NCBI RefSeq assembly: GCF_003814705.1
Contig: NZ_RKRA01000001.1
Location: 3,974,776-4,038,775, forward strand
Source of the DNA: Georgenia muralis
Lineage (GTDB): Bacteria; Actinomycetota; Actinomycetes; Actinomycetales; Actinomycetaceae
Reading direction: 5' to 3'
Length of the DNA: 64,000 nt
A program made the translations under genes and the position numbers. Shown piece after piece: positions 15,729-33,400 of the stretch. Numbering within the stretch: the stretch's first letter is position 1; each line of letters begins with the position of its first letter. The notes beneath the pieces are model-generated. The model was not told where the DNA came from and did not search any database. It worked only from the letters and a program-made list of their open reading frames with translations.

Positions 15729-17888
15729 CTACGGGGCGATGGTCATTGTGAACACGTCACCGGCTCCCGCGTTGGTCTGACCGTCCGGTGCGCCGAAGGT
15801 GAGGCCAGAGACCAGCACGCTTCCATCGGGCGCGCCGGCGGCGTAGAGGTTTGCCTCGTCCCACTCGTCGGCCCCGTCGCGGTCGGCGGACCCGAACTGG
15901 TCGAGCTCACCCACCGCGCCGGCAGCGTCGAGCACCGCGGTGAACACGTCGACCCCACCAACCTGGGAGCCGACCGGCCCGTACGTCGTGCCGACGAGGA
16001 ACACGGAGCCGTCGGCGCGAGCCACGGCGGTGACGCCACGGTCGTCGGTGGCCGTCCCCAGCTGGGTGGTCCACAGCTCCGAGCCGTCGACGGCGAGGGC
16101 GAGGGCGAAGGCGTCCTTGTCCCCGAACGCCGTCGCGCCGAGCCGGCCGCCGGTGTGGCCGACGGCGATGGCGGTCCCGTCGTCGCGGACGGCCATCCCG
16201 CTCACCTGATCCGTGTCGCCGGTGCCGTGCTGGTTCAGCCAGGTGACGTCGCCGGCCGCGGACAGCCTGGCGGTCCAGCCGTCGAGCGAGCCGGCGTGGG
16301 TCGCGCCGGGCATCGCGCCGCCGGCGACCCCGCCCACGTACACCCCGCCATCGGGCGCCGATGCGACGGCGAGAGCCTTGTCCTCGCCGGTGCCGCCGAG
16401 CTGGGTGGTCCACGCGATGGCGCCGTCGGCGGTGACGTGGGCGACGAGCGCGTCCTTGTCGCCGGCGCTGGGGCCGTCGACGCTGCCGCTGGTGTACCCG
16501 GCCACGTACGCGCCGCCCGCACCGTCGGAGGCGACGGCGTAGATGCGGTCGGCGGCGGCCGGGTCGCCGAGCTGGGTGGTCCAGGCGCGCGCCCCGGCGG
16601 CGTCGATTCCAGCGACGAAGGCGTCGTCGCTCGCGCCCGTCGGGTGGGCGCCGTCGAGGTCGCCGCGGGTGTACCCGGCCGTGACGACGCCGCCGTCGCT
16701 CCCGGCGACGACGCCGTAGGCGCGGTCGTTGGCCGCGGTGGCCAGGGCGTGACGCCAGGTGACGCTGCCGTCGGCCGCCCGCCGCTCGAGGACGACGTCC
16801 ATCGCGCCGGCGTAGGGGACGTCGGCGTAGGCGGCCCCGACGTTGAGGCCGACGAGCGTGCCGTCGTCGAGCGCGAGCACGCCGCCCGCACGGTCGTCGG
16901 CGGTCGTGCCCACCAGCTCAGCGCTCCAGGGTGCGACCGGCTCGGTGCGCAGCCGCGCGGAGACGTCGGTGATCGCCTCACGGAAGGCGGGCTGCCACAC
17001 GTCCCAGTCGTGGCCGCCGTCGAGCACGCGGAGCTCGGCCGTCACACCGTCGACGCGGCGTGCGGTGTTGTACAGCTGGGCCGCCTCGAAGTCGAGGTCG
17101 TGGGAGGCGTCGGCCGGGTCGGGGTTGGCCCACTCGTCGTCGCCCACGGCGATGAACAGGTGCACCGGCAGGCTCGGGTCGAGCGCCTCGAGGGCGGTCG
17201 GGTAGCTCAGCTCGGTGTAGCGGTGCTTGTCGAAGAGCTTGTGGCCGACGCCGTAGGCGCCGTAGTCCCGGGTCGAGGAGTCGGCGGGCGGCTGGGGCAC
17301 GTAGACCGCCGGGCTGAGCACGATGCCGGCGGAGAAGGTGTCCTGGTGGGCGAGGGTGAACCGCAGCGCCCCGGCGCCGCCCATGGAGTACCCGCCGACG
17401 GCGCGGGCCGCCCGGTCCTCGACGGTGCGGTAGGTGGCGTCCACGTGCTCGACAAGGTCCTCCGTGAACGCGGTCTCGACGGGCACGCCCGCGCCCGCGC
17501 CGGTCGTCCTGTCCCCGGTGTAGAGCGAGTCGGTGTACCAGCTCCCCCGCTCATTCCAGGGCGCGTCCGGCATGACGACGACCATCGGCTGGATGGTGCC
17601 CGCGGCGATCATCTCGTCGAGGTCCCCTGCGACGCGCTGCCACGCCGCCTGGGTGTCGCCGCGGCCGTGGAGGAGGTAGACCGTGGGGTACTCGGCGTCG
17701 CTGGTGTCGTACCCGGCGGGCAGGTAGACGGTGTAGTCGATCGCTCCGACGGCGTCGGACGGCGCCTCGGCGGAGCGCACGGTGCCGTGCTCCACCGCGA
17801 GCGCCGGGAGGGCGAAGACCGCCCCCGCTCCGGCGACGGCGACTGCCGCCAGTGCTGTGAGGGGACGGCGAAGGATGCGTGTCGTCAT
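15729..17888 (-). CDS. Secreted esterase fused to a C-terminal beta-propeller-like repeat domain
   Basis: 719 residues from ATG 17888 (AAAGGAG upstream). Residues 1-31 are a signal peptide ending LPALAVEHG. Residues 45-290 are a putative esterase of the alpha/beta hydrolase fold: TVYLLHGRGD, the nucleophile elbow GGYSMGGAG, acid in FIAVGDDEW, and His in DGGHDWDVW. Residues 300-719 hold tandem repeats built on the pattern VYVGG/AGYT..G...(D)AF...D.AG...W(T)TQLG, like bacterial beta-propeller repeats (SBBP type). The fusion suggests an exported enzyme with a binding or display module. It is last in the minus-strand cluster, separated from the CitE gene by 49 bases, and ends at a hairpin. Confidence 0.8.
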   Translation of the reverse strand: MTTRILRRPLTALAAVAVAGAGAVFALPALAVEHGTVRSAEAPSDAVGAIDYTVYLPAGYDTSDAEYPTVYLLHGRGDTQAAWQRVAGDLDEMIAAGTIQPMVVVMPDAPWNERGSWYTDSLYTGDRTTGAGAGVPVETAFTEDLVEHVDATYRTVEDRAARAVGGYSMGGAGALRFTLAHQDTFSAGIVLSPAVYVPQPPADSSTRDYGAYGVGHKLFDKHRYTELSYPTALEALDPSLPVHLFIAVGDDEWANPDPADASHDLDFEAAQLYNTARRVDGVTAELRVLDGGHDWDVWQPAFREAITDVSARLRTEPVAPWSAELVGTTADDRAGGVLALDDGTLVGLNVGAAYADVPYAGAMDVVLERRAADGSVTWRHALATAANDRAYGVVAGSDGGVVTAGYTRGDLDGAHPTGASDDAFVAGIDAAGARAWTTQLGDPAAADRIYAVASDGAGGAYVAGYTSGSVDGPSAGDKDALVAHVTADGAIAWTTQLGGTGEDKALAVASAPDGGVYVGGVAGGAMPGATHAGSLDGWTARLSAAGDVTWLNQHGTGDTDQVSGMAVRDDGTAIAVGHTGGRLGATAFGDKDAFALALAVDGSELWTTQLGTATDDRGVTAVARADGSVFLVGTTYGPVGSQVGGVDVFTAVLDAAGAVGELDQFGSADRDGADEWDEANLYAAGAPDGSVLVSGLTFGAPDGQTNAGAGDVFTMTIAP

Positions 17889-17937: not shown

Positions 17938-18765
17938 TCAGGTGCTGTCGTCGGCCAGGGCGAGGACCGCGCGGGCCTGCTCGACCATCGCGACGTCGAG
18001 GAAGGTGCCGTCCTCGAGCGCGACGGCGCCGACGCCGTCGGTCCGCGCGTCACCGACCCGGGCGAGGACGGTGCGGGCGCGTTCGACCTCCTCCCCGGTG
18101 GGGAGGAAGGCCTCGCGGATCGGCCCGAGCTGGGCGGGATGGATCGCCGCCCGGCCGAGGAACCCCAGCGCCCGGCCGGCACGGCAGGAGGCGCTGAGCC
18201 CGTCGACGTCCTTGACGTTCGGGTGGACGGACATGTGGGGCGACGGCAGTTTCGCTGCGCGGGCGGCGACGACGACCCGGCTGCGGGCCCAGCTGAGCCC
18301 GGCGTCGTCGGTGAGCCGCAGGTCCGAGCGCAGGTCCGCCTCCCCGAGGCCGACCGACGCCACCTGCTCCGACGCGGCCGCGATCTCGAAGGCCCGCTCG
18401 ACACCGAGGGCCGACTCGAGGAGCAGGTGCAGGCTCCGGCTGGGCAGGGCGGCGGCGAGCTCGCGCACCTCCGCCGCCGACTCGACCTTCGGCACCCGGG
18501 CACCGACGTCCGCCGGCACGGCGGCCAGCATGGCGACGTCGTCGGCGTGCCACGGCGTCGAGACGTGGTTGACCCGCACCTGCACCGGCCGGTCCACCGT
18601 CGCGAGCAGCCGCGCCGTCTCCGACCGTGCCCGGTCCTTCGCCGCTGGCGCGACGGCGTCCTCGAGGTCCACGATCACGACGTCGGCCTCGGACGCCAGG
18701 GCCTTCTCGACCCGGTCGGGCCGGTCCCCCGGCGCGTACAGCAGGGTCAGCACGGGCCGCCTCAT
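17938..18765 (-). CDS. HpcH/HpaI aldolase / CitE-like CoA-ester lyase
   Basis: 275 residues. The sequence RRPVLTLLYAPGDRPDRVEK, followed by ADVVIVDLEDAVAPAAKDRA, is the hallmark of the CitE (citrate lyase beta / malyl-CoA lyase) family: the Arg and Glu-Asp-Ala positions that bind the CoA ester and metal. LHLLLESALGVERA carries the second metal-ligand Glu, and VGLGEADL its Asp. Enzymes of this family cleave 3-hydroxyacyl-CoA esters such as citramalyl-CoA or malyl-CoA to acetyl-CoA and an oxoacid. It overlaps the CoA-transferase gene by four bases, so the pair probably activates a hydroxyacid and cleaves it. Exact substrate unknown. Confidence 0.85.
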   Translation of the reverse strand: MRRPVLTLLYAPGDRPDRVEKALASEADVVIVDLEDAVAPAAKDRARSETARLLATVDRPVQVRVNHVSTPWHADDVAMLAAVPADVGARVPKVESAAEVRELAAALPSRSLHLLLESALGVERAFEIAAASEQVASVGLGEADLRSDLRLTDDAGLSWARSRVVVAARAAKLPSPHMSVHPNVKDVDGLSASCRAGRALGFLGRAAIHPAQLGPIREAFLPTGEEVERARTVLARVGDARTDGVGAVALEDGTFLDVAMVEQARAVLALADDST

Positions 18766-19970
18766 ACCGCCCCGTCCTCACGGAACGCCGCCACCTGGTC
18801 CGGGGTGAACCCCAGCTCCCCGAGCACGGCGTCGGTGTCCGCGCCGTGCGGACGGCCGGTGAAGGAGATGACGCCGACGTTGCCGGAGAGGCGGAAGAGC
18901 GGGCCCTGCATGCGCATCGGCCCCAGCTCGGGGTCCTCGATCTCGTGGATCGTGCCGAGCGCCTGGAACTGCGGGTCCTCGACGATGTCGTGCGCGTCGT
19001 AGATCGGTGCGACCGCGGCCTGCGCCTCCTCGAAGGCGGCGACCACCTCGTCGCGGGTGCGCCGGGCGATCCACGCCCCGACGGCCTCGTCGATGACGAC
19101 GGCGTGCTGTGCGCGGAGGTGGCCGTGCGCGAACCACGGCTCGTCGATGAGGTCCGGCCGGCCGACGAGCCGCATGATCCGCTCCGCGATGGACTGCGCG
19201 GAGCTGGACACCGCCACCCACTGCCCGTCCCCGGTGCGGTAGGTGTTGCGGGGGGCGTTGTTCGTGGAGCGGTTGCCGGTGCGGGGCTGGACGGTCCGGG
19301 TCTGGTCCCACCGCGTGATCTGCGGACCGAGCATGGCGAGGATCGGCTCGATGATCGACACGTCCACCACCTGCCCGCGCCCGGTGGCCTGCCGGGTATG
19401 CAGGGCGGTCATGATCGCGTAGGCGGTCGCGAGGGAGGCGATGCCGTCCGCTAGCCCGAAGGGCGGCAGGGTGGGCGGGCCGTCGGGCTCGCCGGTCATG
19501 GCCGCGAACCCGCTCATGGCCTCGGCCAGGGTGCCGAACCCGGGGCGGGTGCGGTACGGGCCGACCTGCCCGAACCCGGAGACCCGGGCGAGGACGAGGC
19601 CGGGGTTGGCGGCGGAGAGCTCGTCGTACCCGAGGCCCCACCGCTCCAGGGTGCCGGGGCGGAAGTTCTCGATGACGACGTCGGCGGTCGCGGCGAGCCG
19701 CAGGAACACCTCACGGCCGCCGTCGGAGCCGAGGTCGACCGTCACGGCGCGCTTGTTGCGCCCGAGGGTCTTCCACCACAGGTTCACGCCGTCCTTGGCG
19801 GCGCCGTGCCCCCGGGAGGGGTCGGGCTTGCGCGGGTGCTCGACCTTGACGACGTCGGCGCCCATGTCGCCCAGGTGCATGGCCGCGAGGGGGCCGGCGA
19901 ACAGCGTCGACGCGTCCACGACCTTCAGGCCGGCCAGGGCTCCGCGGGCGGGGTCACGGGAGACGGTCAT
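18762..19970 (-). CDS. CaiB/BaiF family class III CoA-transferase
   Basis: 402 residues from ATG 19970. Class III features: LKVVDASTLFAGPLAAMHLG (with Asp and adjacent Ala-Gly-Pro), MGADVVKVEHPRKPD, the NLWWKTLGRNKRAVTVDLG strand, DVVIENFRPGTLERWGLGYD, and PPFGLADGIASLATAY. The catalytic Asp sits at the usual region near residue 170 (GLADGIAS). Such enzymes transfer CoA from a donor ester to a carboxylic acid. The start overlaps the stop of the gene before it by four bases (ATGA), and its stop overlaps the CitE-like lyase. Together they resemble citramalate or itaconate catabolic pairs, which is inference. Confidence 0.85.
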   Translation of the reverse strand: MTVSRDPARGALAGLKVVDASTLFAGPLAAMHLGDMGADVVKVEHPRKPDPSRGHGAAKDGVNLWWKTLGRNKRAVTVDLGSDGGREVFLRLAATADVVIENFRPGTLERWGLGYDELSAANPGLVLARVSGFGQVGPYRTRPGFGTLAEAMSGFAAMTGEPDGPPTLPPFGLADGIASLATAYAIMTALHTRQATGRGQVVDVSIIEPILAMLGPQITRWDQTRTVQPRTGNRSTNNAPRNTYRTGDGQWVAVSSSAQSIAERIMRLVGRPDLIDEPWFAHGHLRAQHAVVIDEAVGAWIARRTRDEVVAAFEEAQAAVAPIYDAHDIVEDPQFQALGTIHEIEDPELGPMRMQGPLFRLSGNVGVISFTGRPHGADTDAVLGELGFTPDQVAAFREDGAV

Positions 19971-22045
19971 CGCTCGCCCTCCAGGGTCCAGGCGCACCGG
20001 AAGCCGATGCTCGACGATCGGGCCAGGCCGAGCCCCGGCACGAGCAGCTTGGCGGTGAATCCCGGTTCGCGGACCCCGCCGTCGAAGTACCACTCCGAGC
20101 CCTCGGACTCGTGGGCGGAGCCGCCCTTGAGCATGGCGAAACGGGTGCGGCCGTCGCTGTGCTCGCTCTCGGTCCAGCTCCACACCGCTGGTGTGCGGCG
20201 GCGCAGGCCCCGCTCGGCGGCGAGCTGCCACTCGTCCTCGGTGGGCAGGCGCCCGCCGCGCCAGGCACAGTAGGCGCGGGCGTCGTCGAGGTCGACGAAG
20301 GTGACCGGCTCGTCCTCGCGGCCGGCCGGCGGGCGGTCACCGTCGAAGTGGGCGAGGAAGCGGTGGGCGACGGCGGGCCGGTAGCCGGTGGCGTCCACGA
20401 ACGCGGCGAACTCGGCGTTGGTGATCTCGCGTGCGACGGCGACCGGGCGGTCGAGCCGACCGTCACGCTGGAGGGTGCGGGCGTCGTGCAGCCGCGGGAC
20501 GAGCGGCTTCCACTCGTCGACGTAGGGGGCGCCCTGGTACATGCCGGTCTCCCGCGCGCGGTGGCGCACGGTGAGGACGTACTCCCCCGCCGGGACGACG
20601 GCGGCGTCCACGGGCACGAGGCCGGCCGGCGTCGGGGCGGGCGTTTCCGCGCCGGCCGGCGCCGTGCCGGGCTGGGCCGAGGCGGGTCCGGCGGGCGGGA
20701 CCGGGGTCACCCGGTGGGCGAGGCGGTGCGGGAAGCGGGCGTCGTCGTCGAACGGCATGGTGGCGAGCCGCTCGAGCAGCCCGGGGAGCCAGTCCGGCTC
20801 ACTCGCCCCGGGCGCCACGGCGAGAGCGGCGCCGATCGAGCGGGCGCGGACGGTGACGGCGCTGGCCTTCGCGTCGCCGGTACGGGCGGTGCTCACGCCG
20901 TCACCGCCCGTCCCGAACAGATCCAGCACGCTCCCGTCGGCGGGCAGCGAACCGCTCCAGTCGGCGTCGCCGCGGTTGACCAGCGCCCACAAAGTCACGC
21001 CGTCGCGGGCGAAGGTCGAGGCGTAGACCCCGGCGCTCTCGGCGTCCGGCGAGATCTCCGCGAGCGGGGTCCACTCCGCCTCGAGCAGCAGCTCGGTGGC
21101 GGCGCGCTGCACGGTCACCATGCGGCGCACGGTGGCGGCGTCGCGGGGGTTCCACCCGACCCACACGCCGAACACCACCTCCCACACCATGACCCCGACG
21201 CCGTTGAGCCAGGCGGACTGCAGCTCCTCGGCGTGGTCGCGGTGCCAGCGGCGGATGTGGTGCTGCATGTGGCGGCGCTCGTACCAGTGGGCGCGGAGCA
21301 CACCCGGCACGGGGCTGTCGGCGAAGAACTGCGCCCACGAGGCGTTGTGGTCGACGATCCGCTCGACGGCGAGCTTGGACTCGCCCTCCAGCACGATCCC
21401 GGGGCGGGCACGCTCGAGGGAGTCGACGAGCTCGGGGTCGGCCTTCTTGAGGGTGTCGAGGAAGACGCCGTCGGCCGGCAGGTCCCGGACGAGGGCGGCG
21501 AGCTCGGTGAGGTCGTCCTCGCCGCGGCGGGTGCCGGTGTCCCAGGGGTTGTAGTCGACGAAGACCTTCACGCCCGCGGCGTGCAGGTCCTCGACGAGCC
21601 CGGTCAGGCCCGGGACGTCGCGGTAGAAGTCCCACTGGTTCCGGTCATCGATGCCGATCACCGGGTAGGCGTGCCAGAGCACGACGGCGTCGAGGCCGCC
21701 GAACCGCTGGCGGGCGTCGTCGAGGAAGCGCTCGGGGGTGAAGCGGTGGTCGTCGAAGGAGTACAGCAGCTCGTCCCACAGCCACACCTGCGCCACGGTG
21801 AAGCAGCGCGCGGCCCACCGGGCGCCCGGCCGCTCGTACGCGGCGCCGTCGTAGGCGTGGCGCCGCCGGGCGCCCTCACGCCAGGCGGTGAGCCGCGCCC
21901 GCCACGCGGGCCGGTCGGCGGGGTCGTCCGGGGCGGCGAAGATCTTGGCCTCGTCGAGGGCGGCGAGGTCGGCGCCGTCCTCCAGCGGGACGGGCGTCGG
22001 CCGGTCGATGGGGCGCGGGACGAGCGGGTCGAAGCTGTAGGTCAC
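19967..22045 (-). CDS. TIM-barrel glycosidase-like domain fused to an FGE/sulfatase-modifying-like domain
   Basis: 692 residues from GTG 22045 (GTGA overlap with ribokinase). Residues 60-340 look like a glycoside-hydrolase TIM barrel: LDAVVLWHAYPVIGIDDRNQ, AGVKVFVDYNPWDTG, DGVFLDTLKKADPE, GIVLEGESKLAVERIVD, and HWYERRHMQHHIRRWHR; an Asp in FLDTLKK and a Glu in VLEGE are candidate catalysts. The C-terminal 180 residues are FGE-like (VAREITNAEFAAFVDATGYR, GGRLPTEDEWQLAAERGL, IGFRCAW). The Cys pair needed for formylglycine synthesis is absent, since the segment reads KGGSAHESEGSEW. That module is therefore probably non-enzymatic, perhaps ligand binding. No signal peptide, so likely cytosolic. 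Confidence 0.65.
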   Translation of the reverse strand: MTYSFDPLVPRPIDRPTPVPLEDGADLAALDEAKIFAAPDDPADRPAWRARLTAWREGARRRHAYDGAAYERPGARWAARCFTVAQVWLWDELLYSFDDHRFTPERFLDDARQRFGGLDAVVLWHAYPVIGIDDRNQWDFYRDVPGLTGLVEDLHAAGVKVFVDYNPWDTGTRRGEDDLTELAALVRDLPADGVFLDTLKKADPELVDSLERARPGIVLEGESKLAVERIVDHNASWAQFFADSPVPGVLRAHWYERRHMQHHIRRWHRDHAEELQSAWLNGVGVMVWEVVFGVWVGWNPRDAATVRRMVTVQRAATELLLEAEWTPLAEISPDAESAGVYASTFARDGVTLWALVNRGDADWSGSLPADGSVLDLFGTGGDGVSTARTGDAKASAVTVRARSIGAALAVAPGASEPDWLPGLLERLATMPFDDDARFPHRLAHRVTPVPPAGPASAQPGTAPAGAETPAPTPAGLVPVDAAVVPAGEYVLTVRHRARETGMYQGAPYVDEWKPLVPRLHDARTLQRDGRLDRPVAVAREITNAEFAAFVDATGYRPAVAHRFLAHFDGDRPPAGREDEPVTFVDLDDARAYCAWRGGRLPTEDEWQLAAERGLRRRTPAVWSWTESEHSDGRTRFAMLKGGSAHESEGSEWYFDGGVREPGFTAKLLVPGLGLARSSSIGFRCAWTLEGER

Positions 22046-22944
22046 GCGTGCTCCCTCGCGAGGTGGGCGGTCTCGGTGGCGGTGGGGACGGCATCCTGGG
22101 CGCCCGGCCGGGTGACGGCGAGCGCCCCGGCCGCGGCGGCGAGCCGGGCGGCGCCGGCGAGGGAGGCGCCATCGGCCAGCGCCGCGGCGAGGACGCCGCA
22201 GAAGGTGTCCCCGGCCCCGGTGGTGTCGACGGCGGTGACCCTGGGTGCGGTCACGCTCTGGTGCTCGCTGCCGCGCTCGGCGACGAGCGCGCCGTCGCCG
22301 CCGAGGGTGACCACGACGGCGGGGACCCGCTCGAGGAGGGCGGTGGCCAGCTGTGCGGGGCTGCCGTCGCGGCCGGCGAGGTCGCGGGCCTCGTGCTCGT
22401 TGACCACCAGGATGTCGACCTCGGCCCACAGCTGCGCCGGCAGATCCCGGGACGGGGCGGCGTTGAGCACCAGCCGCGCGCCGTCCCGGCGGGCCCGCGC
22501 CGCGGCGACCACGGTCTCCAGCGGGATCTCCAGCTGGGCGAGGACCACGTCCGCCACCGCGAGCCGGCGGGCCGCGACGGCGTCGACGCTCACCTCGGAG
22601 TTCGCGCCGGGCGCGACGATGATGGCGTTCTCGCCGTCGTCGGTGACCCAGATCAGCGCGGTGCCGGTGGCCTCCGCGGAACGGGCGACCAGGTCGGTGT
22701 GGACGCCGGCGCCGGTCAGGGAGGCGAGCAGCAGGTCCGCGGCCTCGTCCCGGCCGAGCGCGCCGAGGAACCACGTGTCCGCTCCCCCGGCCCGGGCGGC
22801 GGCGACCGCCTGGTTGGCCCCCTTCCCGCCGGGGGTGCGGCGGAGGTTGCCGCCGAGGATCGTCTCCCCCGGGCCTGGGTGGCGCGGGACGTCCACGACC
22901 AGGTCAACGTTGGCGCTGCCGACGACCACCACCGTGCCGGTCAT
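22042..22944 (-). CDS. rbsK: Ribokinase (PfkB family)
   Basis: 300 residues from ATG 22944. It shows the ribokinase landmarks in order: VVVVGSANVDLVVDVPRHPG, GGNLRRTPGGKGANQAVAAA (substrate site), DILVVNEHEARDLAGRDG, VVVTLGGDGALV and the PfkB signature VTAVDTTGAGDTFCGVLAAA with the catalytic Asp. It phosphorylates ribose to ribose 5-phosphate, or a related sugar. It overlaps both neighbours by four bases; an ADP-ribosylglycohydrolase precedes it, so ribose set free from a ribosyl substrate is a plausible substrate here. Confidence 0.85.
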   Translation of the reverse strand: MTGTVVVVGSANVDLVVDVPRHPGPGETILGGNLRRTPGGKGANQAVAAARAGGADTWFLGALGRDEAADLLLASLTGAGVHTDLVARSAEATGTALIWVTDDGENAIIVAPGANSEVSVDAVAARRLAVADVVLAQLEIPLETVVAAARARRDGARLVLNAAPSRDLPAQLWAEVDILVVNEHEARDLAGRDGSPAQLATALLERVPAVVVTLGGDGALVAERGSEHQSVTAPRVTAVDTTGAGDTFCGVLAAALADGASLAGAARLAAAAGALAVTRPGAQDAVPTATETAHLAREHA

Positions 22945-24290
22945 GCTGCCCCCTCCTGCAGGCGCAGCGTGCGCCGCGCCAGGTCGTCGATGCTCCGGAC
23001 GGCGCCGCCCGGCAGGGAGGTGGCGATCGTGCCGTGGATCGGCGCGGTCCAGCTCGCCCCGATGCCCTCGGTGCCCAGCAGCGCCCCCAGGACGGAGCCG
23101 ACGGTGGCGCCGGCGGAGTCGGTGTCCCACCCGGCGGTGACGGCGATGGAGACCGACGGGCCGAAGCTCCCGCCGCCCTTGGTCAGCGCGTACGCGATGA
23201 CGGCGGCGTTGTTGAGCACGTGCACCCAGTGCAGGTGGCCGTACTCGGCGTGCAGGACGTCGAGCCCGGCGGCGACGTCCCCGTCCGCGCGACCGATCTC
23301 ACGGCCGCGGCGCACCGCCCGCGCCAGCCGGCTCTGCGGCGGGAGCACGGTCTCGGCGGCGTCGAGGGCCTGCTCCACGTCGTCGACCACCAGGGCGGCC
23401 GAGCACAGGGCGGCGGCCCACATGGCGCCGTAGATCCCGTTGCGCGTGTGGGACAGACGCGCGTCCGTCCAGGCCAGGCGAGCGGCGCCGCGCACGTCGC
23501 CGGGGCGCACCCAGCCCAGGACGTCGGTGCGGATCAGCGCGCCGATCCACTCACGGAACGGGTTGAGGTACGTGGCCGTCTCGGGCACGGGCCGGACGTC
23601 GAGGATGTTGCGGTAGGCGGCGCGCTCGGCGGTGAAGACCCGCCCGGCCGGGAGGTTGTCGAGCCAGGCCCGGGCGACGTCGTCGGTGGTGAACCCGGTC
23701 CCATGGCGCTCGAGGAGGTCGAGGGCGAGGAGGGGGTAGTTGAGGTCGTCATCCTCCGGCATGCCGTCGATGTTCTCCTCGAGGGAGGTCGGGGCGCTGC
23801 GCCGGTTCCACGGCCAGCGGGCGGCGACGTCCTCGGGGAGCCCGACGGCGGTGAACCACGTCTCCAGCGGCCACCGCCCGGTGGCGCGCAGGATCTCCTC
23901 GATGCCCTGGCGCGGGATCTTCTCCACCGGTTTGCCGAGCAGGCACCCGGCGGCCCGTCCCGTCCACGCGCCGTGGACGCGCCGCTCCTGGTCGGTCGGC
24001 GCCGGTAGGGACGGCGCGGGCGGGAGCAGCGCCTCGATGGCGTCCCAGCCGTCCGGCTCGTGGTCCGCCGGCGCCGCCGGCAGGGCGGCGAGCTCGGCGA
24101 GGTGGGCGCGGGCGAGGACACGCAGCTCCGGGGTGGCCGGGGTGGCCGAGGCGCCGGAGACGGCGGGGACGACGTCCCCGCCGGCCTGCTGCCACCGCGC
24201 CACGACCGCCGCGACGTCCCTGCCCTCGGCGGCCGACTGGACGAGCTCGTGGGCGAGCAGGTCCTCGGGCTGGGCCCACGTCAGTCTCAC
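22941..24290 (-). CDS. ADP-ribosylglycohydrolase-family protein, long form
   Basis: 449 residues. The N-terminal about 110 residues are an extra helical segment. The ARG/DraG core starts at VHGAWTGRAAGCLLGKPVEK and has NIDGMPEDDDLNYPLLALDL (acidic metal-ligand cluster) and TAGWDTDSAGATVGSVLGAL (D-T-D-S metal site). Members of this family hydrolyse ADP-ribosyl or related ribosyl bonds using two Mg or Mn ions. The cluster has two such genes with overlapping ends: this one and the gene at 24287. Whether the substrate is ADP-ribose linked or another N- or O-riboside is unknown. Confidence 0.85.
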   Translation of the reverse strand: MRLTWAQPEDLLAHELVQSAAEGRDVAAVVARWQQAGGDVVPAVSGASATPATPELRVLARAHLAELAALPAAPADHEPDGWDAIEALLPPAPSLPAPTDQERRVHGAWTGRAAGCLLGKPVEKIPRQGIEEILRATGRWPLETWFTAVGLPEDVAARWPWNRRSAPTSLEENIDGMPEDDDLNYPLLALDLLERHGTGFTTDDVARAWLDNLPAGRVFTAERAAYRNILDVRPVPETATYLNPFREWIGALIRTDVLGWVRPGDVRGAARLAWTDARLSHTRNGIYGAMWAAALCSAALVVDDVEQALDAAETVLPPQSRLARAVRRGREIGRADGDVAAGLDVLHAEYGHLHWVHVLNNAAVIAYALTKGGGSFGPSVSIAVTAGWDTDSAGATVGSVLGALLGTEGIGASWTAPIHGTIATSLPGGAVRSIDDLARRTLRLQEGAA

Positions 24291-25453
24291 GCCGGCTCAC
24301 GCTCCATGAGGGTCTCCAGCGCGGCGAGCCGGGCGCGGGCGCGCGTCCGGTCCCGCTCGACGATGTCCAGGGCCACCTGCCCCATGAGGTGACCGGTCGC
24401 GCGGATGTCCATCTTCGAGGCGGTCTCGATCTCGTCGAGCCACTCGGCCGGGACGACGTCGGGGCCGCCCAGCCCGGCACAGATCGCACCAGCCATGACG
24501 GCGATGGAGTCGGCGTCGCGTCCGTAGTTGACGGCGCCGAGCACGGCGCCGCGGAAGTCCCCGCGGTAGCCCAGGACGAGCCCGAACGCGGCAGGCAGCT
24601 CCTCGATGGCCTTGGTCCGGGAGGGACGCCGGGCGTCCATGGACATCTGCCGGTACTCCGGGCCCACCGAGTCGTAGGGCGCGACGGCGTCACGGACGAC
24701 CCTGGCCAGCTCGCGCTCCTCCTCGTCCGTGGTGGGGACGTCCCGGCCGACGACCGCCTCGACCATCGCGACGAGCGCGGCCCGCGTGCCGTCGTGCGCG
24801 ACGTCGAGGGCCGCGGTGACGACGTCGTCGAGCGTGGCGCCGGGGGCGACCGCGGCGGCCACCATGGCAGCGAAGACGCCGGCGGCCTCGCGGCCGTAGC
24901 TGGCCTGGTGCGCACCGGCGACGTCGATCGCCTCGGCGTAGGCACCCCGGGGGTCGCCCGGGTTGGCCAGGCCGACGGGCGCCATGTACATCGCGGCGCC
25001 GCAGTTGACGATGTTGCCCACCCCCGCCTCGCGGGGGTCGACGTGGCCGTAGTGCAGCCGCGCCACCAGCCACTTCTCGGCGAGGAAGACCCGCTGGAGG
25101 ATCAGGGCGGTGGTCTCGAGCTCGGGGATCCACGTCGGCTCGCCGATCATGAGCGGCACGAGGTCCTCGGCGACGGCGTACGCGTCGAGGTGGTCGCGGC
25201 GCCGGGCGTAGACCTCGACGAGGGCACGGGTCATGAGGGTGTCGTCGGTGATGTGCCCGTCGCCCTTGTGGTACGGCGCGATCGGGCGGGCGTCGCGCCA
25301 GTTCTCGAACCAGGGCCCGACGATGCCGGTGATACGGCCGCCGTGGCGCTCCTCGATCTGCTCCGGCGTCCAGCCCTCGATGGCGCCGCCGAGGGCGTCC
25401 CCGACGGCGGCACCGGTGATCACTGCCACCGCTCGGTCTTCCAGCCAGCTCAC
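24287..25453 (-). CDS. ADP-ribosylglycohydrolase-family protein
   Basis: 388 residues from GTG 25453 (the longer frame from 25486 carries a start-like segment unlike the family). Landmarks: AVITGAAVGDALGGAIEGWT at the N-terminus, DGHITDDTLMTRALVEVY (D-D-T metal motif), an internal VNCGAAMYMAPVGLANPGDP and a C-terminal NYGRDADSIAVMAGAICAGL (D-A-D-S). These are all expected for an active DraG/ARH enzyme. It overlaps the next ARG gene by four bases. Upstream lie three direct repeats and a hairpin that ends the ABC transporter section, so it may have its own promoter. Confidence 0.88.
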   Translation of the reverse strand: MSWLEDRAVAVITGAAVGDALGGAIEGWTPEQIEERHGGRITGIVGPWFENWRDARPIAPYHKGDGHITDDTLMTRALVEVYARRRDHLDAYAVAEDLVPLMIGEPTWIPELETTALILQRVFLAEKWLVARLHYGHVDPREAGVGNIVNCGAAMYMAPVGLANPGDPRGAYAEAIDVAGAHQASYGREAAGVFAAMVAAAVAPGATLDDVVTAALDVAHDGTRAALVAMVEAVVGRDVPTTDEEERELARVVRDAVAPYDSVGPEYRQMSMDARRPSRTKAIEELPAAFGLVLGYRGDFRGAVLGAVNYGRDADSIAVMAGAICAGLGGPDVVPAEWLDEIETASKMDIRATGHLMGQVALDIVERDRTRARARLAALETLMEREPA

Positions 25454-25471
25454 GTCTGCTCCCGTTCGTTC

Positions 25472-25542
25472 GTGATGCCCTCGCACGGAGGGATCGTGAT
25501 GCCCTCGCAGGAGGGATCGTGATGCCCTTGCACGGAGGGATC
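25472..25542. repeat. Three tandem copies of a 23/24-bp repeat upstream of the ARG operon
   Basis: GTGATGCCCTCGCACGGAGGGATC (written in two parts here: GTGATGCCCTCGCACGG and AGGGATC) occurs at 25472-25495, as a 23-base version at 25496-25518, and again with one change at 25519-25542. The copies are adjacent with no spacers. They lie just upstream of the ARG gene at 25453, so they may be protein-binding sites or a slippage product. Confidence 0.8.
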
Positions 25543-25567
25543 GCCATGTCCTCAGCCTGCCGAGATG

Positions 25568-25613
25568 TCACCGGCCCAGCGTCACGAGCTCGTGACGGTG
25601 GCCGGGCCGGTGA
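25568..25613 (-). terminator. Hairpin after the substrate-binding protein gene
   Basis: TCACCGGCCC pairs with GGGCCGGTGA, and inside it CGTCACGAG with CTCGTGACG, giving a two-part stem about 29 bases below the stop of the lipoprotein gene at 25642. It may terminate or attenuate the transcript before the ARG genes. Confidence 0.65.
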
Positions 25614-25641
25614 CCTCTCGCTCTGCCGATGGGTGGTGCGG

Positions 25642-26928
25642 TCAGGCCGTGATCTCGTCCCAGCCGGCCTGGAGCTCCTCCGCGAGCCCGGCGGAGTCGA
25701 TCTCGCCCGCCAGGTAACGCTGGAACGCAGGGGTGGCCACGGTGTCCTTCCACTGTGCGTAGGCGTCGACGAACAGGTACGGCGCGTCCGTGAAGTGCTG
25801 GCCGGAGGCGAGGACGGTGTCCCAGCCCGGCTCGCCCGAGAGGTTCTCCGCCATGACGTCCTGGGCGGAGCTGGACGCCGGGATGAGGGCGTCCGCCTCG
25901 TTCAGCGCCGCGAGGTTCTCGGCCTGGGTGAAGAAGTTGAGGAACTCGGCGGCCTGCTCCGGGTACTCCGAGTCGATGTTCACCGAGAGTGTCTGCGGGT
26001 TGGCAGCCTGACCGGCGCCCTCAGGCCCCTCCAGCGGGGGCAGCACGATCCAGTCGAAGCCCTCCGGGGCGTCGGCGGCGATGTTGGCCGCCTGGAAGGA
26101 GCCCTGGATCGTCATGGCGATCTCGCCGGCGTAGAACGAGGCGAGCACCTCGGAGCCGGACTGGGTGAGGGAAACGGGCAGGATCGACTGGTCCTCGGTG
26201 TTCATGGCGTTGACGAGCTCGGGGATGGCGAGCTCGCCCTCGTCGACCTGCAGAGCGGCGTCGGCTCCGGTGCCGTCGAAGTAGGTGCCGCCGAAGGCCG
26301 GCCCCATGGTCATGAACGCGGCGGTCGGGCTCTTCAGGCCCCAGCCGAGGCCGTACTTGCCGTCCGCCGTCGTCGTCTTCGCGATCTCACGCAGCTCGTC
26401 CCAGGTCATGGTCTCACCCGTGGGGATCTCCACGCCCGCATCCTCCAGGAGGGTGCGGTTGGCGAAGACCATGTAGGACTGCAGCTCGGTCGGGTAGCCG
26501 ATCACCTCGCCGTCGACCGTGACGGTCTGCATGATGCCCTCGGGCACATCGGAGGCGAAGTCCTCGTCCATCCACTCGGACAGGTCGGCGAGGTAGCCGT
26601 CGCGCGCGAAGGGCACGATCGAGGCGGCCTCGTAGTGGATGATGTCCGGCGCCGCGCCACCGTTGAACTGGGTGATGAGCTTGTCGTAGATGCCGTCCCA
26701 GCCGGCCGGGACGATCTCGACCTGCGTGTCGGGGTTCTCCTCGTTCCACTGGGCGACGATCGACTCAGTCGCCTCGATGGCGGCGGGCTGGTCGGAGAGG
26801 GACTGGAACTCCAGGGTGATGGGCCCGGTGGGTTCCGCCTCGGTGTCGCCGTCCCCGCCGCCACAGGCAGTGAGGACGAGCAGGCCGGCGGTGAGGCTTG
26901 CAGCGATGGAAGCGCCACGCTTGTTCAT
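25642..26928 (-). CDS. ABC sugar transporter substrate-binding lipoprotein
   Basis: 428 residues from ATG 26928. A lipoprotein signal (AASLTAGLLVLTACGGGDGD) puts the lipid-modified Cys at about residue 22. The rest is a family 1 (MalE/UgpB-like) solute-binding protein: LEFQSLSDQPAAIEATESIV, NPDTQVEIVPAGWDGIYDKL, FANRTLLEDAGVEIPTGETM and an ALNEADALIPASSSAQ end. It would capture the transported ligand outside the cell and pass it to the permeases encoded just upstream on the transcript. The ligand is unknown; the downstream ARG, ribokinase and glycosidase-like genes suggest a ribosyl or glycosyl compound. Confidence 0.88.
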   Translation of the reverse strand: MNKRGASIAASLTAGLLVLTACGGGDGDTEAEPTGPITLEFQSLSDQPAAIEATESIVAQWNEENPDTQVEIVPAGWDGIYDKLITQFNGGAAPDIIHYEAASIVPFARDGYLADLSEWMDEDFASDVPEGIMQTVTVDGEVIGYPTELQSYMVFANRTLLEDAGVEIPTGETMTWDELREIAKTTTADGKYGLGWGLKSPTAAFMTMGPAFGGTYFDGTGADAALQVDEGELAIPELVNAMNTEDQSILPVSLTQSGSEVLASFYAGEIAMTIQGSFQAANIAADAPEGFDWIVLPPLEGPEGAGQAANPQTLSVNIDSEYPEQAAEFLNFFTQAENLAALNEADALIPASSSAQDVMAENLSGEPGWDTVLASGQHFTDAPYLFVDAYAQWKDTVATPAFQRYLAGEIDSAGLAEELQAGWDEITA

Positions 26929-26960
26929 GTCTTGTCGCCTTTCAGCGTTGTGGAGGTGGA

Positions 26961-27788
26961 TCAACCCTTGACGGCACCGGACAGGAGTCCGCCGGTGAGC
27001 TTCTTCTGCATGATGGAGAAGAAGACGATGCTCGGGATGGCGGCCAGGACCGAGCCCGCGGCGAGCGGGCCCAGGGCCACCTTCCCCTCCCCGCCGACGA
27101 ACATCTTCAGCGTGATCGGCAGGGTGTAGTTCTCCGGCGACTGCAGGAGGACCAGGGCGAAGAAGAACTCGTTCCAGGAGGAGACGAAGGAGAACATCGC
27201 GGTCGCGACGATGCCGGGCATGAGGAGCGGGAACACGATGCGGCGCAGCACCACGAGCCGGCCCGCGCCGTCCATCGCCCCGGCCTCCTCCAGGTCCGGC
27301 GGGATGGCCGAGACGTAGCCCTGGAGCATCCACAGCGCGAACGGCATCGTGTACGTGGTGTGGACCAGCGTGAGGCCGATGAGACTGTCGGTGAGGCCGA
27401 CGGTCCGCAGGATGAGGAACAGCGGCAGGATGATGAGGATGACGGGGAAGACCTGGCTGACCAGGATCCAGCCCGTCCCGACCGTGCGGAACATGCCCTT
27501 GAACCTGGCCAGGACGTAGGCCGCCGGCAGCGAGATCAGGACGACCAGGGCGGTGGAGACGAGGGCGACGACGATCGAGTTCCCCGCCGAGCGCACCAGT
27601 CCCTGACGCTCGAGGGCCTCGGAGAAGTTCTCCCAGTGCCACTCCTGCGGGATGAGGTTGACCGAGAGGGAGTTCAGCTCGGCGGAGGACTTCACGGAGG
27701 CAGAGATCAGCCACAGCAACGGGAAGCCCAGGAACAGGATGTAGAGGAAGAGTGCGGCGTACTGCGCCGGCTTGACCACTGCGCGCAC
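26961..27788 (-). CDS. ABC sugar transporter permease (MalG type)
   Basis: 275 residues, GTG start at 27788, three bases after the other permease's stop. Six membrane helices fit the profile, starting with YAALFLYILFLGFPLLWLIS and including SIVVALVSTALVVLISLPAA. The EAA loop that contacts the ATPase is DLEEAGAMDGAGRLVVLRRI. No ATP-binding subunit is encoded in the cluster, so it must share an MsmK-type ATPase encoded elsewhere. Confidence 0.88.
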   Translation of the reverse strand: MRAVVKPAQYAALFLYILFLGFPLLWLISASVKSSAELNSLSVNLIPQEWHWENFSEALERQGLVRSAGNSIVVALVSTALVVLISLPAAYVLARFKGMFRTVGTGWILVSQVFPVILIILPLFLILRTVGLTDSLIGLTLVHTTYTMPFALWMLQGYVSAIPPDLEEAGAMDGAGRLVVLRRIVFPLLMPGIVATAMFSFVSSWNEFFFALVLLQSPENYTLPITLKMFVGGEGKVALGPLAAGSVLAAIPSIVFFSIMQKKLTGGLLSGAVKG

Positions 27789-27791
27789 GGC

Positions 27792-28766
27792 TCAGGACTC
27801 CTTCTCTTCGCGGAACTGCGACCAGAGGTACGCGGCGAGCAGCAGGACGACGACGACCACGAGCACCACGCCCATCGCAGCGGCGTAGCCGATGTTGCGG
27901 TTCTTGAACGCCTCCAGGTAGGTGAAGAGCATCGGCAGCATCGTCTTCCCGCCGGGTCCGCCCTCGGTGAGGACGTACACGAGGCTGAAGGAGTTGAAGT
28001 TCCAGATGAAGTTGAGCGACGTGATCGAGGTGAGGATCGGCCGCAGGCTCGGCACCGTCACGCTCGAGAACCGGCGGACGGCGTTCGCGCCGTCCATCGA
28101 CGCCGCCTCGTAGAGCTCGCCCGGGATCTGCTGCAGACCGGCGAGGAGCGTGACGGTCGTCTGGGGCATGCCGAGCCACACGCCGACAACGACGACGGCG
28201 GGGAGGGCGGTGTCGAAGTTGCCCAGCCAGTTGATGCTGTCAGGCAGACCGACCGCGCCGAGCACGGCGTTGAGCGGGCCGGCGTTGGGCGAGTAGATCA
28301 TCCGCCACATGATCGCCACGACCACCGGGGGCATCGCCCACGGGATGAGTGCGAGCACGCGGGTGAGCCCCTGGAAGCGGAGGTCGGAGTTGAGCAGCAG
28401 CGCCAGGCCCATGCCGGCGAGGAGCTGGAGCAGCGTGACCGAGACCGCCCACACCATGCCGATGCGGAAGGAGTCCCAGAAGAAGCTGTTGTCGAGCAGC
28501 CGCGTGAAGTTGTCGATGCCGACGAACGCGTACTCGGGGTTGCGCACCAGCCGGGCGTCCGTGAAGGCGAGGAGCACGCCTACGAGCAGCGGAGCCACAC
28601 TCAGGAGCAGGATCGGCAGCAGCGAGGGCAGGACGAGAGCGATGGCCTCGCGGCGCTTGGCTTTCCCGACGCCGCCCATGCGGGGCTTCTGCGCCCTGCG
28701 GAGGTCCGGGCTGGGGTCCGGAAGTGGCGGCCGTTGGCGACCGCTGGCGAGCGACGGCGCTGTCAT
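27792..28766 (-). CDS. ABC sugar transporter permease (MalF/UgpA type)
   Basis: 324 residues. A Pro-rich cytoplasmic N-terminus is followed by membrane helices beginning IALVLPSLLPILLLSVAPLL. The EAA motif is LYEAASMDGANAVRRFSSVT, with a Gly after the Asp as expected. The start overlaps the stop of the LacI-type regulator by four bases, and the next permease starts almost at once, so translation is coupled through the whole block. With the permease at 26961 it would form the membrane channel. Confidence 0.88.
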   Translation of the reverse strand: MTAPSLASGRQRPPLPDPSPDLRRAQKPRMGGVGKAKRREAIALVLPSLLPILLLSVAPLLVGVLLAFTDARLVRNPEYAFVGIDNFTRLLDNSFFWDSFRIGMVWAVSVTLLQLLAGMGLALLLNSDLRFQGLTRVLALIPWAMPPVVVAIMWRMIYSPNAGPLNAVLGAVGLPDSINWLGNFDTALPAVVVVGVWLGMPQTTVTLLAGLQQIPGELYEAASMDGANAVRRFSSVTVPSLRPILTSITSLNFIWNFNSFSLVYVLTEGGPGGKTMLPMLFTYLEAFKNRNIGYAAAMGVVLVVVVVLLLAAYLWSQFREEKES

Positions 28767-29791
28767 GCCATCTCCTCCTCGTGACAGGTGGACTCGCGCA
28801 CCCGGAGCTCGGGCGCGACGAACACGTTGGTGGGTCCGCTCGACGGGTCGTCCAGGAGCGCGAGCATGAGCTCGGCAGCACGGCGTCCGCGCTCGCTCGA
28901 GTGGAGGGAGACGCTGGTGAGGCTGGGCTGGTACACCTGCCCGATCTCGGTGTCGTCCATGCCGGTGACCGCGACGTCCTCGGGGACGTGCAGCCCTGTC
29001 TCACGGACCGCCTTGATCGCGCCGATGGCGAGCAGGTCGTTGGCGGCGACGATCGCGTCGAGGCGGTGCCCGGCGTGCCGCGCGAGCAGAGCCTGGGCGC
29101 CGGCACGGCCGGCCGCGACGGTGAAGTCGCCGGCGGTCTCGGCGTCCACGAGGTCGGCGCTGAATCCTTCGCGCTCGACCGCCTCGTCGAAGCCACGCCG
29201 GCGGGCGGAGCCCGGCGTGGTGTCGGCGGGACCGTTGAGGAAGCCGATCCGCCTGCGGCCGAGTGCGACGATGTGCGCGACGGCCTGCCCGATGCCACCC
29301 GCGGAGTCGGTGGAGACCGAGTTGAGTCCGGAGTCCTCCAACGACCGGCCGATGACGACGACAGGGACGGGCGCCTCGCGGAGCGCTGTGACCAGTGCGT
29401 CCGTCACGCGGAGCGGGCTGACCACGAGGCCGTCGACCAGGCCGCTGCTGAGGCCGTGGACGAGCTCGATCGTCGACTCGGCCGAGTCCCCCGTGGTGGC
29501 GACCATCAGGCGGTACCCACGCCCGGCGAGCTCACCCTGCAGTGCCTTCATCATCTCGACGTAGACGGGGTTGCCGATGTCCGCGACGGCGAAGGCGATC
29601 TGGAACGTGCGGCGCAGGCGCAGGGACCTGCCGGTGGCGTCAGCCTGGTAACCCAGCTCGGCGGCTGCGACACGGACCTTCTCCACCATCGCCTTGCTGG
29701 CGCCGCTGCCGTGCAACGCGCGGGAGGCGGAGGCGAGGGAGACGCCGGCGCGGTCAGCGACCTGCGGCAGGGTGGCTCGGTGAGTGCCCAT
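28763..29791 (-). CDS. LacI-family transcriptional regulator
   Basis: 342 residues with a GAGGAGGG ribosome site upstream. The N-terminal HTH and hinge read TLPQVADRAGVSLASASRAL and KVRVAAAELGYQADATGRSL; the ligand-binding domain is of periplasmic-binding type (TFQIAFAVADIGNPVYVEMM, and later AIVAANDLLAIGAIKAVRET). It is the first gene of the transporter operon, and two palindromic boxes lie 50-90 bases upstream of its start. It would repress the cluster until a sugar-like inducer binds. Confidence 0.9.
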   Translation of the reverse strand: MGTHRATLPQVADRAGVSLASASRALHGSGASKAMVEKVRVAAAELGYQADATGRSLRLRRTFQIAFAVADIGNPVYVEMMKALQGELAGRGYRLMVATTGDSAESTIELVHGLSSGLVDGLVVSPLRVTDALVTALREAPVPVVVIGRSLEDSGLNSVSTDSAGGIGQAVAHIVALGRRRIGFLNGPADTTPGSARRRGFDEAVEREGFSADLVDAETAGDFTVAAGRAGAQALLARHAGHRLDAIVAANDLLAIGAIKAVRETGLHVPEDVAVTGMDDTEIGQVYQPSLTSVSLHSSERGRRAAELMLALLDDPSSGPTNVFVAPELRVRESTCHEEEMA

Positions 29792-29841: not shown

Positions 29842-29855
29842 TGGAAACGTTTCCA
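29842..29855. promoter_or_regulatory. LacI-family operator 1
   Basis: TGGAAACGTTTCCA is a perfect palindrome with the central CG of LacI/GalR boxes, about 50 bases upstream of the regulator start. It should bind the adjacent LacI-type protein and allow autoregulation of the operon. Confidence 0.7.
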
Positions 29856-29866
29856 AGTCGTCGCTG

Positions 29867-29882
29867 TTGGAAACGTTCTCAG
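29867..29882. promoter_or_regulatory. LacI-family operator 2
   Basis: TTGGAAACGTTCTCAG repeats the half-site GGAAACGTT of operator 1 with a weaker right half. The centres are about 25 bases apart, so two dimers could bind near one face of the DNA and loop or cooperate. Confidence 0.6.
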
Positions 29883-30064: not shown

Positions 30065-30176
30065 GCGTTTCCGGCGCTAGCCGGACAATTCCCGCAGGGC
30101 GACGGCGTCCGCACGGCCCACCCGCCCGTGCTCGAACGATCCGGCCCGCCGGGTGCGGGCACGAGAGGAAGCTGCC

Positions 30177-31220
30177 ATGCGCGCAGTGGTTTTCACCGAC
30201 TTCCAGACCTTTCCCTCACTCACCGAGGTCGAGCGGCCCGTCCCTGGGCCGGGCGAGGTGCTCCTCAAGGTGGCGGGCTCGGGGGCCTGCCACTCCGACG
30301 TCGCGATCTACGAGGACTTCGCCGAGGGCACTCCCGGGGCGATCGCACCGGGCTTCACCCTCGGCCACGAGGTCTCCGGCTGGATCGAGGAGACCGGACC
30401 CGGCGTCCACGGATTCACCAAGGGCGAGGCGTTCCTGGCCTACGGCCCGATCGGCTGCGGGCACTGCAAGGCCTGCTCGCGCGGCCAGGACACGTACTGC
30501 GAGAACGTGGCGTCGATGCCCTACCTCGGCATCGGGCTGGGCCGGGACGGCGGCATGGCCGAGTACGTGCTCGTCCCGGCGCGCAACCTCGTACCCCTCG
30601 GTGACGCCGACCCGGTGGACGCGGCACCGCTGAGCGACGCCGGTCTCACCCCGTACCACGCCATCAAGAACGCCCTGCCGAACCTGGCCGGCGGCGGCCG
30701 CTTCGCACTCGTGATCGGGCTCGGCGGGCTCGGGCAGGTGGCGGTGCAGATCCTCACCGCGCTGACCGGGGCGACCGTCATCGCGACCGACATGAAGGAC
30801 GACGCCATGCGGCGCGCCGAGGCCAACGGTGCGGTGACCGTGCCGGGCGGGGAGAACCAGGTCGCCGCGATCCGCGAGCTCACCGGCGGCCGCGGCGTCG
30901 ACGCCGCCTTCGACTTCGTCGGGGCCACGCCCACCATCAAGACCGCGCAGGCGTCGATGGCGCAGGGCGGACGGCTCACCGTCGTGGGCATCGCGAACGG
31001 CGTCACCGAGTGGTCGTTCTTCACGACCCCGTACGAGTCGACCATCAGCAACACGTACTGGGGCACCATCGCCGACCTGCACGAGGTCGTCGCGATGTAC
31101 CGCGCGGGCCAGATCCGGCCCGAGGTCGAGCGGTACTCCATGGACGACGCCCTCGAGGCCTACCGCAAGCTCGAGTCCGGCCAGCTCTCGGGCCGCGCCG
31201 TCGTCGTGCCGCACGTCTGA
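30177..31220 (+). CDS. Zinc-dependent alcohol dehydrogenase (NAD(P)-linked, MDR family)
   Basis: 347 residues from ATG 30177, behind GAGGAAG. Catalytic zinc ligands are in GACHSDVAIYED and TLGHEVSG; the structural zinc motif is GCGHCKACSRGQDTYC; the Rossmann loop is ALVIGLGGLGQVAVQ, followed by VIATDMKDDAMRRA, where the Asp after the second strand favours NAD. Length is usual for this family. It is monocistronic and followed by a strong hairpin. Substrate unknown. Confidence 0.9.
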   Translation: MRAVVFTDFQTFPSLTEVERPVPGPGEVLLKVAGSGACHSDVAIYEDFAEGTPGAIAPGFTLGHEVSGWIEETGPGVHGFTKGEAFLAYGPIGCGHCKACSRGQDTYCENVASMPYLGIGLGRDGGMAEYVLVPARNLVPLGDADPVDAAPLSDAGLTPYHAIKNALPNLAGGGRFALVIGLGGLGQVAVQILTALTGATVIATDMKDDAMRRAEANGAVTVPGGENQVAAIRELTGGRGVDAAFDFVGATPTIKTAQASMAQGGRLTVVGIANGVTEWSFFTTPYESTISNTYWGTIADLHEVVAMYRAGQIRPEVERYSMDDALEAYRKLESGQLSGRAVVVPHV

Positions 31221-33380: not shown

Positions 33381-33400
33381 TGTCGGTGGGGGCACCTACC

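Follow-up and report, generated by a model that had tools for sequence, protein, structure and literature searches.

The window analysed here is a 64,000-nucleotide stretch of Georgenia muralis DNA (assembly GCF_003814705.1, contig NZ_RKRA01000001.1, positions 3,974,776 to 4,038,775 of the forward strand; the genome is 4.14 Mb on a single contig, and the best-matching named relatives at this locus belong to the genus Georgenia). It contains ten minus-strand genes, read from 29791 down to 17938, that very probably form an operon dedicated to the import and breakdown of a compound. In the order of reading they encode a LacI-family regulator (28763..29791; PF00356, PF13377), an ATP-binding cassette (ABC) importer permease of the UgpA/MalF-like kind (27792..28766; PF00528), a second, GlcU/MalG-like permease (26961..27788; PF00528), a solute-binding lipoprotein of the SBP_bac_1 family (25642..26928; PF01547, 135.6 bits), two proteins of the ADP-ribosylglycohydrolase (ARG) family, ARG1 (24287..25453, GTG start) and ARG2 (22941..24290, with about 100 extra N-terminal residues), a ribokinase-like PfkB kinase (22042..22944; PF00294), a fusion of a TIM-barrel, glycosidase-like domain to a C-terminal domain resembling formylglycine-generating enzyme (FGE) (19967..22045), a class III coenzyme A (CoA) transferase of the CaiB family (18762..19970; PF02515) and a CitE-type C-C lyase (17938..18765; PF03328). 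The permeases stay under the cut-offs of their NCBIfam equivalogs.

The genes are tightly packed: reading frames overlap by 4 bases at six of the nine junctions (LacI/permease 1, ARG1/ARG2, ARG2/kinase, kinase/fusion, fusion/CaiB and CaiB/CitE), and the other three are gaps of 3, 32 and 188 bases if ARG1 is taken to start at the GTG at 25453. Every assignment is matched above the curated Pfam cut-offs (LacI, BPD_transp_1 twice, SBP_bac_1, ADP_ribosyl_GH twice, PfkB, FGE-sulfatase in the C-terminal part of the fusion only, CoA_transf_3 and HpcH_HpaI), and the Pfam scan found no ATPase inside the operon. Thus the gene set, the single direction, the overlaps at most junctions and the importer lacking its ATPase gene are all as the original prediction had them. 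It had not listed an eleventh gene in the same direction, an accessory member that starts 49 bases after CitE (15729..17888, minus strand) and encodes a secreted CE1-type esterase fused to an SBBP beta-propeller (PF00756, PF06739).

Conservation of this arrangement was measured around relatives of the fusion protein. A scan of one-per-species genomes gave 174 such relatives, and the best 80 of the 174 were analysed as loci (L155 is the same locus as L074); 72 were assessable, and the other eight (L034, L042, L044, L067, L076, L079, L081 and L087) lie too near a contig end. All ten genes are present in order in 63 of the 72, in other actinobacterial genomes, and only the kinase is missing in eight; chance gene order is ruled out by these 63 loci. 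The hosts include Georgenia, Oerskovia, Cellulosimicrobium, Promicromonospora, Cellulomonas, Amycolatopsis, Prauserella, Nocardiopsis, Saccharopolyspora, Microbacterium, Glycomyces, Arthrobacter and Kribbella. The 4-base LacI/permease overlap recurs in 67 of 67 loci and a fusion/CaiB overlap of 4 or 1 bases in 64 of 71, with the start codons chosen as those nearest to the window's, a choice that favours window-like junction distances. An esterase homologue follows CitE after 21–262 bases in 17 of the 80 loci. For the other nine proteins, pairwise distances (59 rows, the window's among them; matches covering <85% of the query or containing stops or X were excluded from the protein sets) correlate with those of the fusion protein with r of 0.90–0.97, values that fit joint inheritance and that common ancestry by itself would also yield; low minima in this comparison are explained by paralogous permeases (34% and 26%) at L079.

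The cassette is patchy in distribution and moves as a block. Its barrel domain was found in 20 of 394 sampled genomes of the class (our own included, up to four candidates per genome scored) and is full-length in four of nine genomes of the genus (our own and eight others). Re-searching one family with every candidate scored returned the same 15 genomes, 15 of 22. A search of the phylum with the full fusion protein matched 125 of 396 genomes (three candidates per genome scored); among the matches listed, those from other genomes cover the FGE-like part only, so this figure is no count of cassettes. No relative was found in the viral contigs searched. The barrel gene of genome G023 (L007) has one in-frame TAA within the matched stretch and is possibly a pseudogene, and at L172 (genome G628) a barrel-domain gene is present and the other cassette genes were not found in the fetched 20 kb.

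Upstream of LacI lies a predicted operator, the perfect 12-base palindrome GGAAACGTTTCC (29843..29854, minus strand), of which an exact copy occurs in 50 of 74 LacI upstream regions. A second, upstream half of a paired operator is predicted at 29869..29880 (minus strand, at −89 of LacI; GAGAACGTTTCC, which departs from the palindrome at two positions). With at most two mismatches the operator is found in 66 of the 74 upstream regions vs none of 73 equal-length control stretches inside the operon, and at least two such sites occur in 52 of the 74, spaced 31–35 bases apart in 42 of these and 26 apart in the window. This retention across upstream regions makes autoregulation by LacI well supported at the level of sequence, and it is plausible that the operon is LacI's sole target. 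The regulator's best NCBIfam scores are to GntR, UriR and RbsR, each far under its cut-off.

A strong RNA stem-loop directly follows the binding-protein gene (25561..25620, minus strand; the 106-base region folds at −62.5 kcal/mol, z −6.3), and long stems occupy the gap between the binding-protein and ARG1 genes in many, though not all, other loci. Hairpins in this position commonly lift expression of the binding protein above that of the genes downstream. Three near-identical repeats of 23–24 bases lie at about 25470–25545 (minus strand), immediately upstream of the ARG1 start codon.

ARG1 and ARG2 are the sole PF03747 matches in the genome, at 163.3 and 163.5 bits against a cut-off of 26.2. 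Proteins of this family are usually annotated as ADP-ribosylglycohydrolases. The acidic motifs near both protein ends, which we take to be metal-binding, are invariant: TDDT and D-x-D-S in 75 of 75 ARG1 rows, EDDD and DTDS in 76 of 76 ARG2 rows. With these motifs in place both proteins should be active hydrolases. Neither reaches the DraG or Tri1 NCBIfam equivalogs (ARG1 scores 53.7 of 337.05 and 42.8 of 490, respectively; ARG2 has no match). The predicted model of ARG2 (mean predicted local distance difference test score, pLDDT, 93) matches ARH3, DraG and MJ1187; ARG1 has Tyr156 where MJ1187 has Arg, in a CGAAM(Y/R) loop that aligns as a weak 5-bit segment. In one actinobacterial family two extra genes stand between the binding protein and ARG1 in all 13 readable cassettes (L157–L159 and L161–L170); two more of that family's 15 genomes fall outside this count, one at a contig end (L160) and one with the barrel gene only (L172). 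The extra proteins are 72–85% (first) and 59–75% (second) identical to those of one member (at L169 the second aligned over only 184 residues), and a Pfam scan of two of the 13 loci matched all four extra proteins to PF03747, so that the cassettes of this family hold four ARGs. Several ARGs behind a sugar importer would make sense as enzymes for several bonds of one glycoside and are hard to reconcile with de-ADP-ribosylation of one protein. We consider it likely that the ARGs of the cassette act on a small glycoside.

The fusion protein is 692 residues long. In its predicted model (pLDDT 81) residues 27–417 match GH13-type barrels, with a best Z of 18.6 over 312 aligned residues and a root-mean-square deviation of 3.8; Z lies between 15.7 and 18.6 among the 50 entries listed, where GH13 and GH129 enzymes are named. 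By sequence no family is detectable for the barrel: the window's domain matches no Pfam family at E values up to 10, 19 members searched against Pfam gave just chance-level matches to four unrelated families, and there is no significant match in the PDB. Asp197, in the fourth strand (193–199), and Glu222, in the fifth (218–223), are present in 80 of 80 rows; both are also kept in 12 of 12 rows of a second comparison and in the distant Sphingopyxis and Spirosoma proteins (below), where Glu220 is lost. In GH13-type enzymes the nucleophile and the acid/base sit at these strand-4 Asp and strand-5 Glu positions. As modelled, the barrel looks like a retaining glycosidase, with the fold and the Asp/Glu pair of the GH13/GH129-type alpha-glycosidases and, unlike them, no significant sequence relation to those families and an extra FGE-like domain, and it is a candidate for a new glycosidase family. 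The FGE-like domain itself is clear (PF03781, 71 bits against a cut-off of 23.3). An active formylglycine-generating enzyme requires a catalytic cysteine pair. The whole fusion has three cysteines, and those at the two FGE-part positions are conserved in only 53 and 56 of 80 rows; we therefore reject an active formylglycine enzyme and regard a binding or structural role as likelier.

The kinase finds its best PDB matches in ribokinases (176–208 bits). D16, K43, N46, E143 and D255 of RbsK, presumably the residues with which E. coli ribokinase binds ribose and ATP, align with identical residues, and the GGKG and AGD motifs occur in 66 of 66 rows. All eight genomes with a kinase-less cassette hold ribokinase-type kinases elsewhere (best per genome 223–355 bits), and a kinase over the TIGR02152 cut-off is found in two of nine genomes searched. 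The last two genes point to the making and splitting of a CoA ester. CaiB is a strong family member (399 bits for PF02515 against a cut-off of 23.3) that reaches no NCBIfam equivalog. In CitE, R64, E117 and D144, which we assume to be the metal- and carboxylate-binding residues, are present in 78 of 78 rows, and the nearest NCBIfam model is RipC at 151.8 bits, short of its cut-off of 375. The Pfam scan found neither a hydratase nor an oxidoreductase in the cassette, which suggests that CoA is attached to an acid that is already a 3-hydroxyacyl precursor. Since neither malate nor citrate needs such a route, a 2-substituted malate is the simplest guess; that the acid is citramalate-like is possible and rather doubtful. 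In the degradation of itaconate, RipA, RipB and RipC likewise combine a CoA-transferase with a CitE-type lyase. The cassette shares these two enzymes and differs by its low RipC score, its lack of a hydratase and its added sugar genes; RipC-type itaconate degradation was rejected on the first two grounds.

The importer, with two permeases and an SBP_bac_1 binding protein, fits the CUT1 type. Actinobacterial sugar operons of this type typically combine LacI, two permeases, a binding protein and an intracellular glycosidase with a shared ATPase, and in actinobacteria one ATPase commonly serves many importers. The cassette is like them in regulation and importer layout; it differs in that its glycosidases would belong to the ARG family and to an unnamed barrel family, and in its CoA branch. 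A reading of the missing ATPase as an anomaly was set aside, since two genes with a MalK-type OB domain lie elsewhere in the genome and presumably encode the ATPases. The accessory esterase matches structures of ferulic acid esterases in its first part and CylK in its propeller part. A Bacteroides ribose-scavenging locus reportedly carries related proteins.

A counterpart of the cassette occurs in another phylum, on one alphaproteobacterial plasmid. On this plasmid, pSFD01 of Sphingopyxis sp. FD7 a TonB receptor, a ribokinase-like kinase (52% identical), a barrel/FGE fusion (32%, nearly full length), a protein like the GH127-type beta-L-arabinofuranosidases and a CaiB protein (34%) run in one direction, and the adjacent divergent side encodes CitE (34%), a sodium:solute symporter, a LysR regulator and a carboxylesterase of another family (PF00135). 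This cluster thus shares with the cassette the kinase, the fusion, CaiB, the lyase and an esterase, and differs in having the TonB receptor and symporter in place of the ABC importer, LysR nearby in place of LacI, its PF00135 esterase, and a GH127-type protein with no ARG in the fetched stretches. ARG1 and ARG2 profiles found no match in the 42.5 kb fetched around the pSFD01 cluster (L174, L176) or in the Spirosoma stretch; control loci L158 and L171 were positive. In both phyla, then, the kinase, barrel protein, CoA-transferase and lyase come together; the import genes are of another kind, and the version that lacks ARGs has a GH127-type furanosidase. This last point is the strongest hint that the ARGs of the cassette are furanosidases.

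From the gene set, its order and conservation, the operator, the metal- and catalytic-type residues, the predicted folds and the plasmid version we infer every reaction and substrate of the following scheme, which we favour tentatively and hold at slightly less than even confidence: a LacI-controlled catabolic operon for an imported glycoside with a 1,2-cis pentofuranosyl unit, alpha-D-ribofuranosyl being the most likely one. In loci that encode it, the secreted esterase would trim an ester or acyl group outside the cell; the MalE-type importer, energised by a shared ATPase encoded elsewhere, would take the glycoside in. ARG1 and ARG2, built on the metal-dependent ARH fold, would be furanosidases for small molecules, not protein de-ADP-ribosylases, and would probably release ribose, and the barrel/FGE protein could be a retaining alpha-glycosidase whose nucleophile is Asp197 and whose acid/base is Glu222. 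The kinase would phosphorylate, and so trap, the freed ribose, and CaiB would load the acid part onto CoA for CitE to split into an acyl-CoA and a keto acid, as would fit a 2-substituted malate such as citramalate. Taken alone, the assignment of the pentose as ribose is favoured on balance. The original prediction had proposed one regulated unit that imports and degrades a ribosylated or glycosylated compound with an acidic aglycone. The regulated unit and the glycosidic nature of its substrate are supported by the block conservation, the operator, the kinase residues, the glycosidase-like barrel and the Sphingopyxis GH127-type protein; ribose as the sugar, an acid as the aglycone and the substrates of CaiB and CitE do not stand on the same footing.

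Several results weigh against this scheme. The kinase scores 277.5 bits against the ribokinase equivalog TIGR02152, just under the cut-off of 299.65, and is absent from nine of the 72 loci, so ribose is not certain; the nine include the one decayed locus, in Nocardiopsis coralli (L035), which has lost LacI, ARG1, the kinase, CaiB and CitE and retains the permeases, the binding protein, ARG2 and the fusion. The residue of CaiB at what we take to be the catalytic position of class III CoA-transferases (Asp) is Glu208 in 79 of 79 rows, the four aligned PDB chains shown have Asp (two), Glu (one) and Ser (one) there, and the Sphingopyxis CaiB has Arg; the chemistry of CaiB may thus not be standard. 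The Foldseek list is heterogeneous, with GH30, fucosidase and galactosidase barrels among its entries, so the glycosidase class of the barrel is not fixed. The Sphingopyxis case is a single record, in which the 34% identities of CaiB and CitE are ordinary family-level similarity; its GH127-type protein has a sole and weak NCBIfam match, to the aceric acid hydrolase model, at 83.4 of 950 bits, which is far off, and the names of GH127 enzymes refer to L-arabinofuranose or aceric acid rather than to ribose. The Spirosoma fusion gene lies beside a GH28 pectinase-family gene, and the genes annotated around it include no ribokinase, CaiB or CitE. In the Georgenia genome itself the operator is no commoner than its control: with at most one mismatch there is one site, that of LacI, vs one for a backwards control, and with at most two there are 29 vs 23, no excess, so that further LacI targets are indistinguishable from chance.

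The same kind of operon could instead serve a furanose other than ribose. The ARGs would then act on a plant-cell-wall pentofuranoside (such as L-arabinofuranose, apiose or the aceric acid of pectin side chains), and CaiB and CitE would degrade a branched sugar acid. The Sphingopyxis GH127-type protein with its weak aceric acid hydrolase match, the pectinase-family gene adjoining the Spirosoma barrel gene and the secreted enzyme like ferulic acid esterases all agree with such a substrate. However, the kinase resembles ribokinases and keeps 52% identity across two phyla, and the cassette has no isomerase or oxidoreductase for such sugars; we judge this version unlikely.

Less probable again, and in our estimate quite improbable, is a salvage operon for ADP-ribose, pieces of NAD or nucleosides. 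The E. coli yegTUV genes form the closest parallel: they encode (PMC10819704) a transporter, the ARG protein YegU and the PfkB kinase YegV under a single-target repressor, YegW (GgaR), reported to sense ADP-glucose, and the authors there call the functions of the three genes not clear. Like the cassette, that system unites an ARG protein and a PfkB sugar kinase with an importer under a local repressor (PMC10819704), and the regulators to which our LacI is most alike, GntR, UriR and RbsR, would suit salvage, though all are far under their cut-offs. The yegTUV set differs in having one ARG, a major facilitator superfamily transporter and a GntR-type regulator, and in having no barrel glycosidase, CaiB, CitE or esterase. 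Salvage would leave exactly these last four unexplained; moreover, our importer is of the oligosaccharide type, and Pfam and NCBIfam reveal no phosphatase, nucleosidase or deaminase in the cassette.

Finally, that ARG1 and ARG2 are DraG-like regulators that remove ADP-ribose from proteins has the fold and metal motifs of the family in its favour and is most improbable in view of the low or absent DraG and Tri1 scores, the lack of an ADP-ribosyltransferase gene in the cassette, the presence of two to four ARG genes in a row of catabolic ones and the lack of an ARG in the fetched Sphingopyxis stretches.

Elsewhere in the window, a zinc-type alcohol dehydrogenase gene (30153–31220, plus strand) is divergent from LacI, and an IS110-family transposase gene (31939–33165, minus strand) separates the operon from a four-gene Wadjet-type defence system (33278–41604, plus strand) whose successive frames match the JetA2, JetB2, JetC2 and JetD2 models. 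We also considered the operon itself as a defence system and rejected this, as PADLOC matched none of ARG1, ARG2 and the barrel protein.

The cassette that we favour as a furanoside-degrading operon is best viewed as a variation on sugar-catabolic operons that brings in a glycosidase family without a name and, probably, gives a known hydrolase family a new role. A literature search that left most subscription journals outside its reach found no description of it, and the literature searched held no case of a PF03747 protein acting on a food glycoside. A wider possibility, one we would advance with some doubt, is that ARG-family proteins form a class of catabolic furanosidases that are evolutionarily interchangeable with GH127, and that the operon digests a widespread natural glycoside (a 2-hydroxy dicarboxylic acid conjugated to a ribofuranosyl or related group) not yet recognised as bacterial food. 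A fixed operon with two to four ARGs, together with a counterpart in another phylum where a GH127-type protein occurs and ARGs are lacking nearby, allows a direct test of whether ARGs can be ordinary sugar hydrolases. The operon also points to a substrate, unnamed in the literature found, for whose consumption various soil actinobacteria seem to be equipped.

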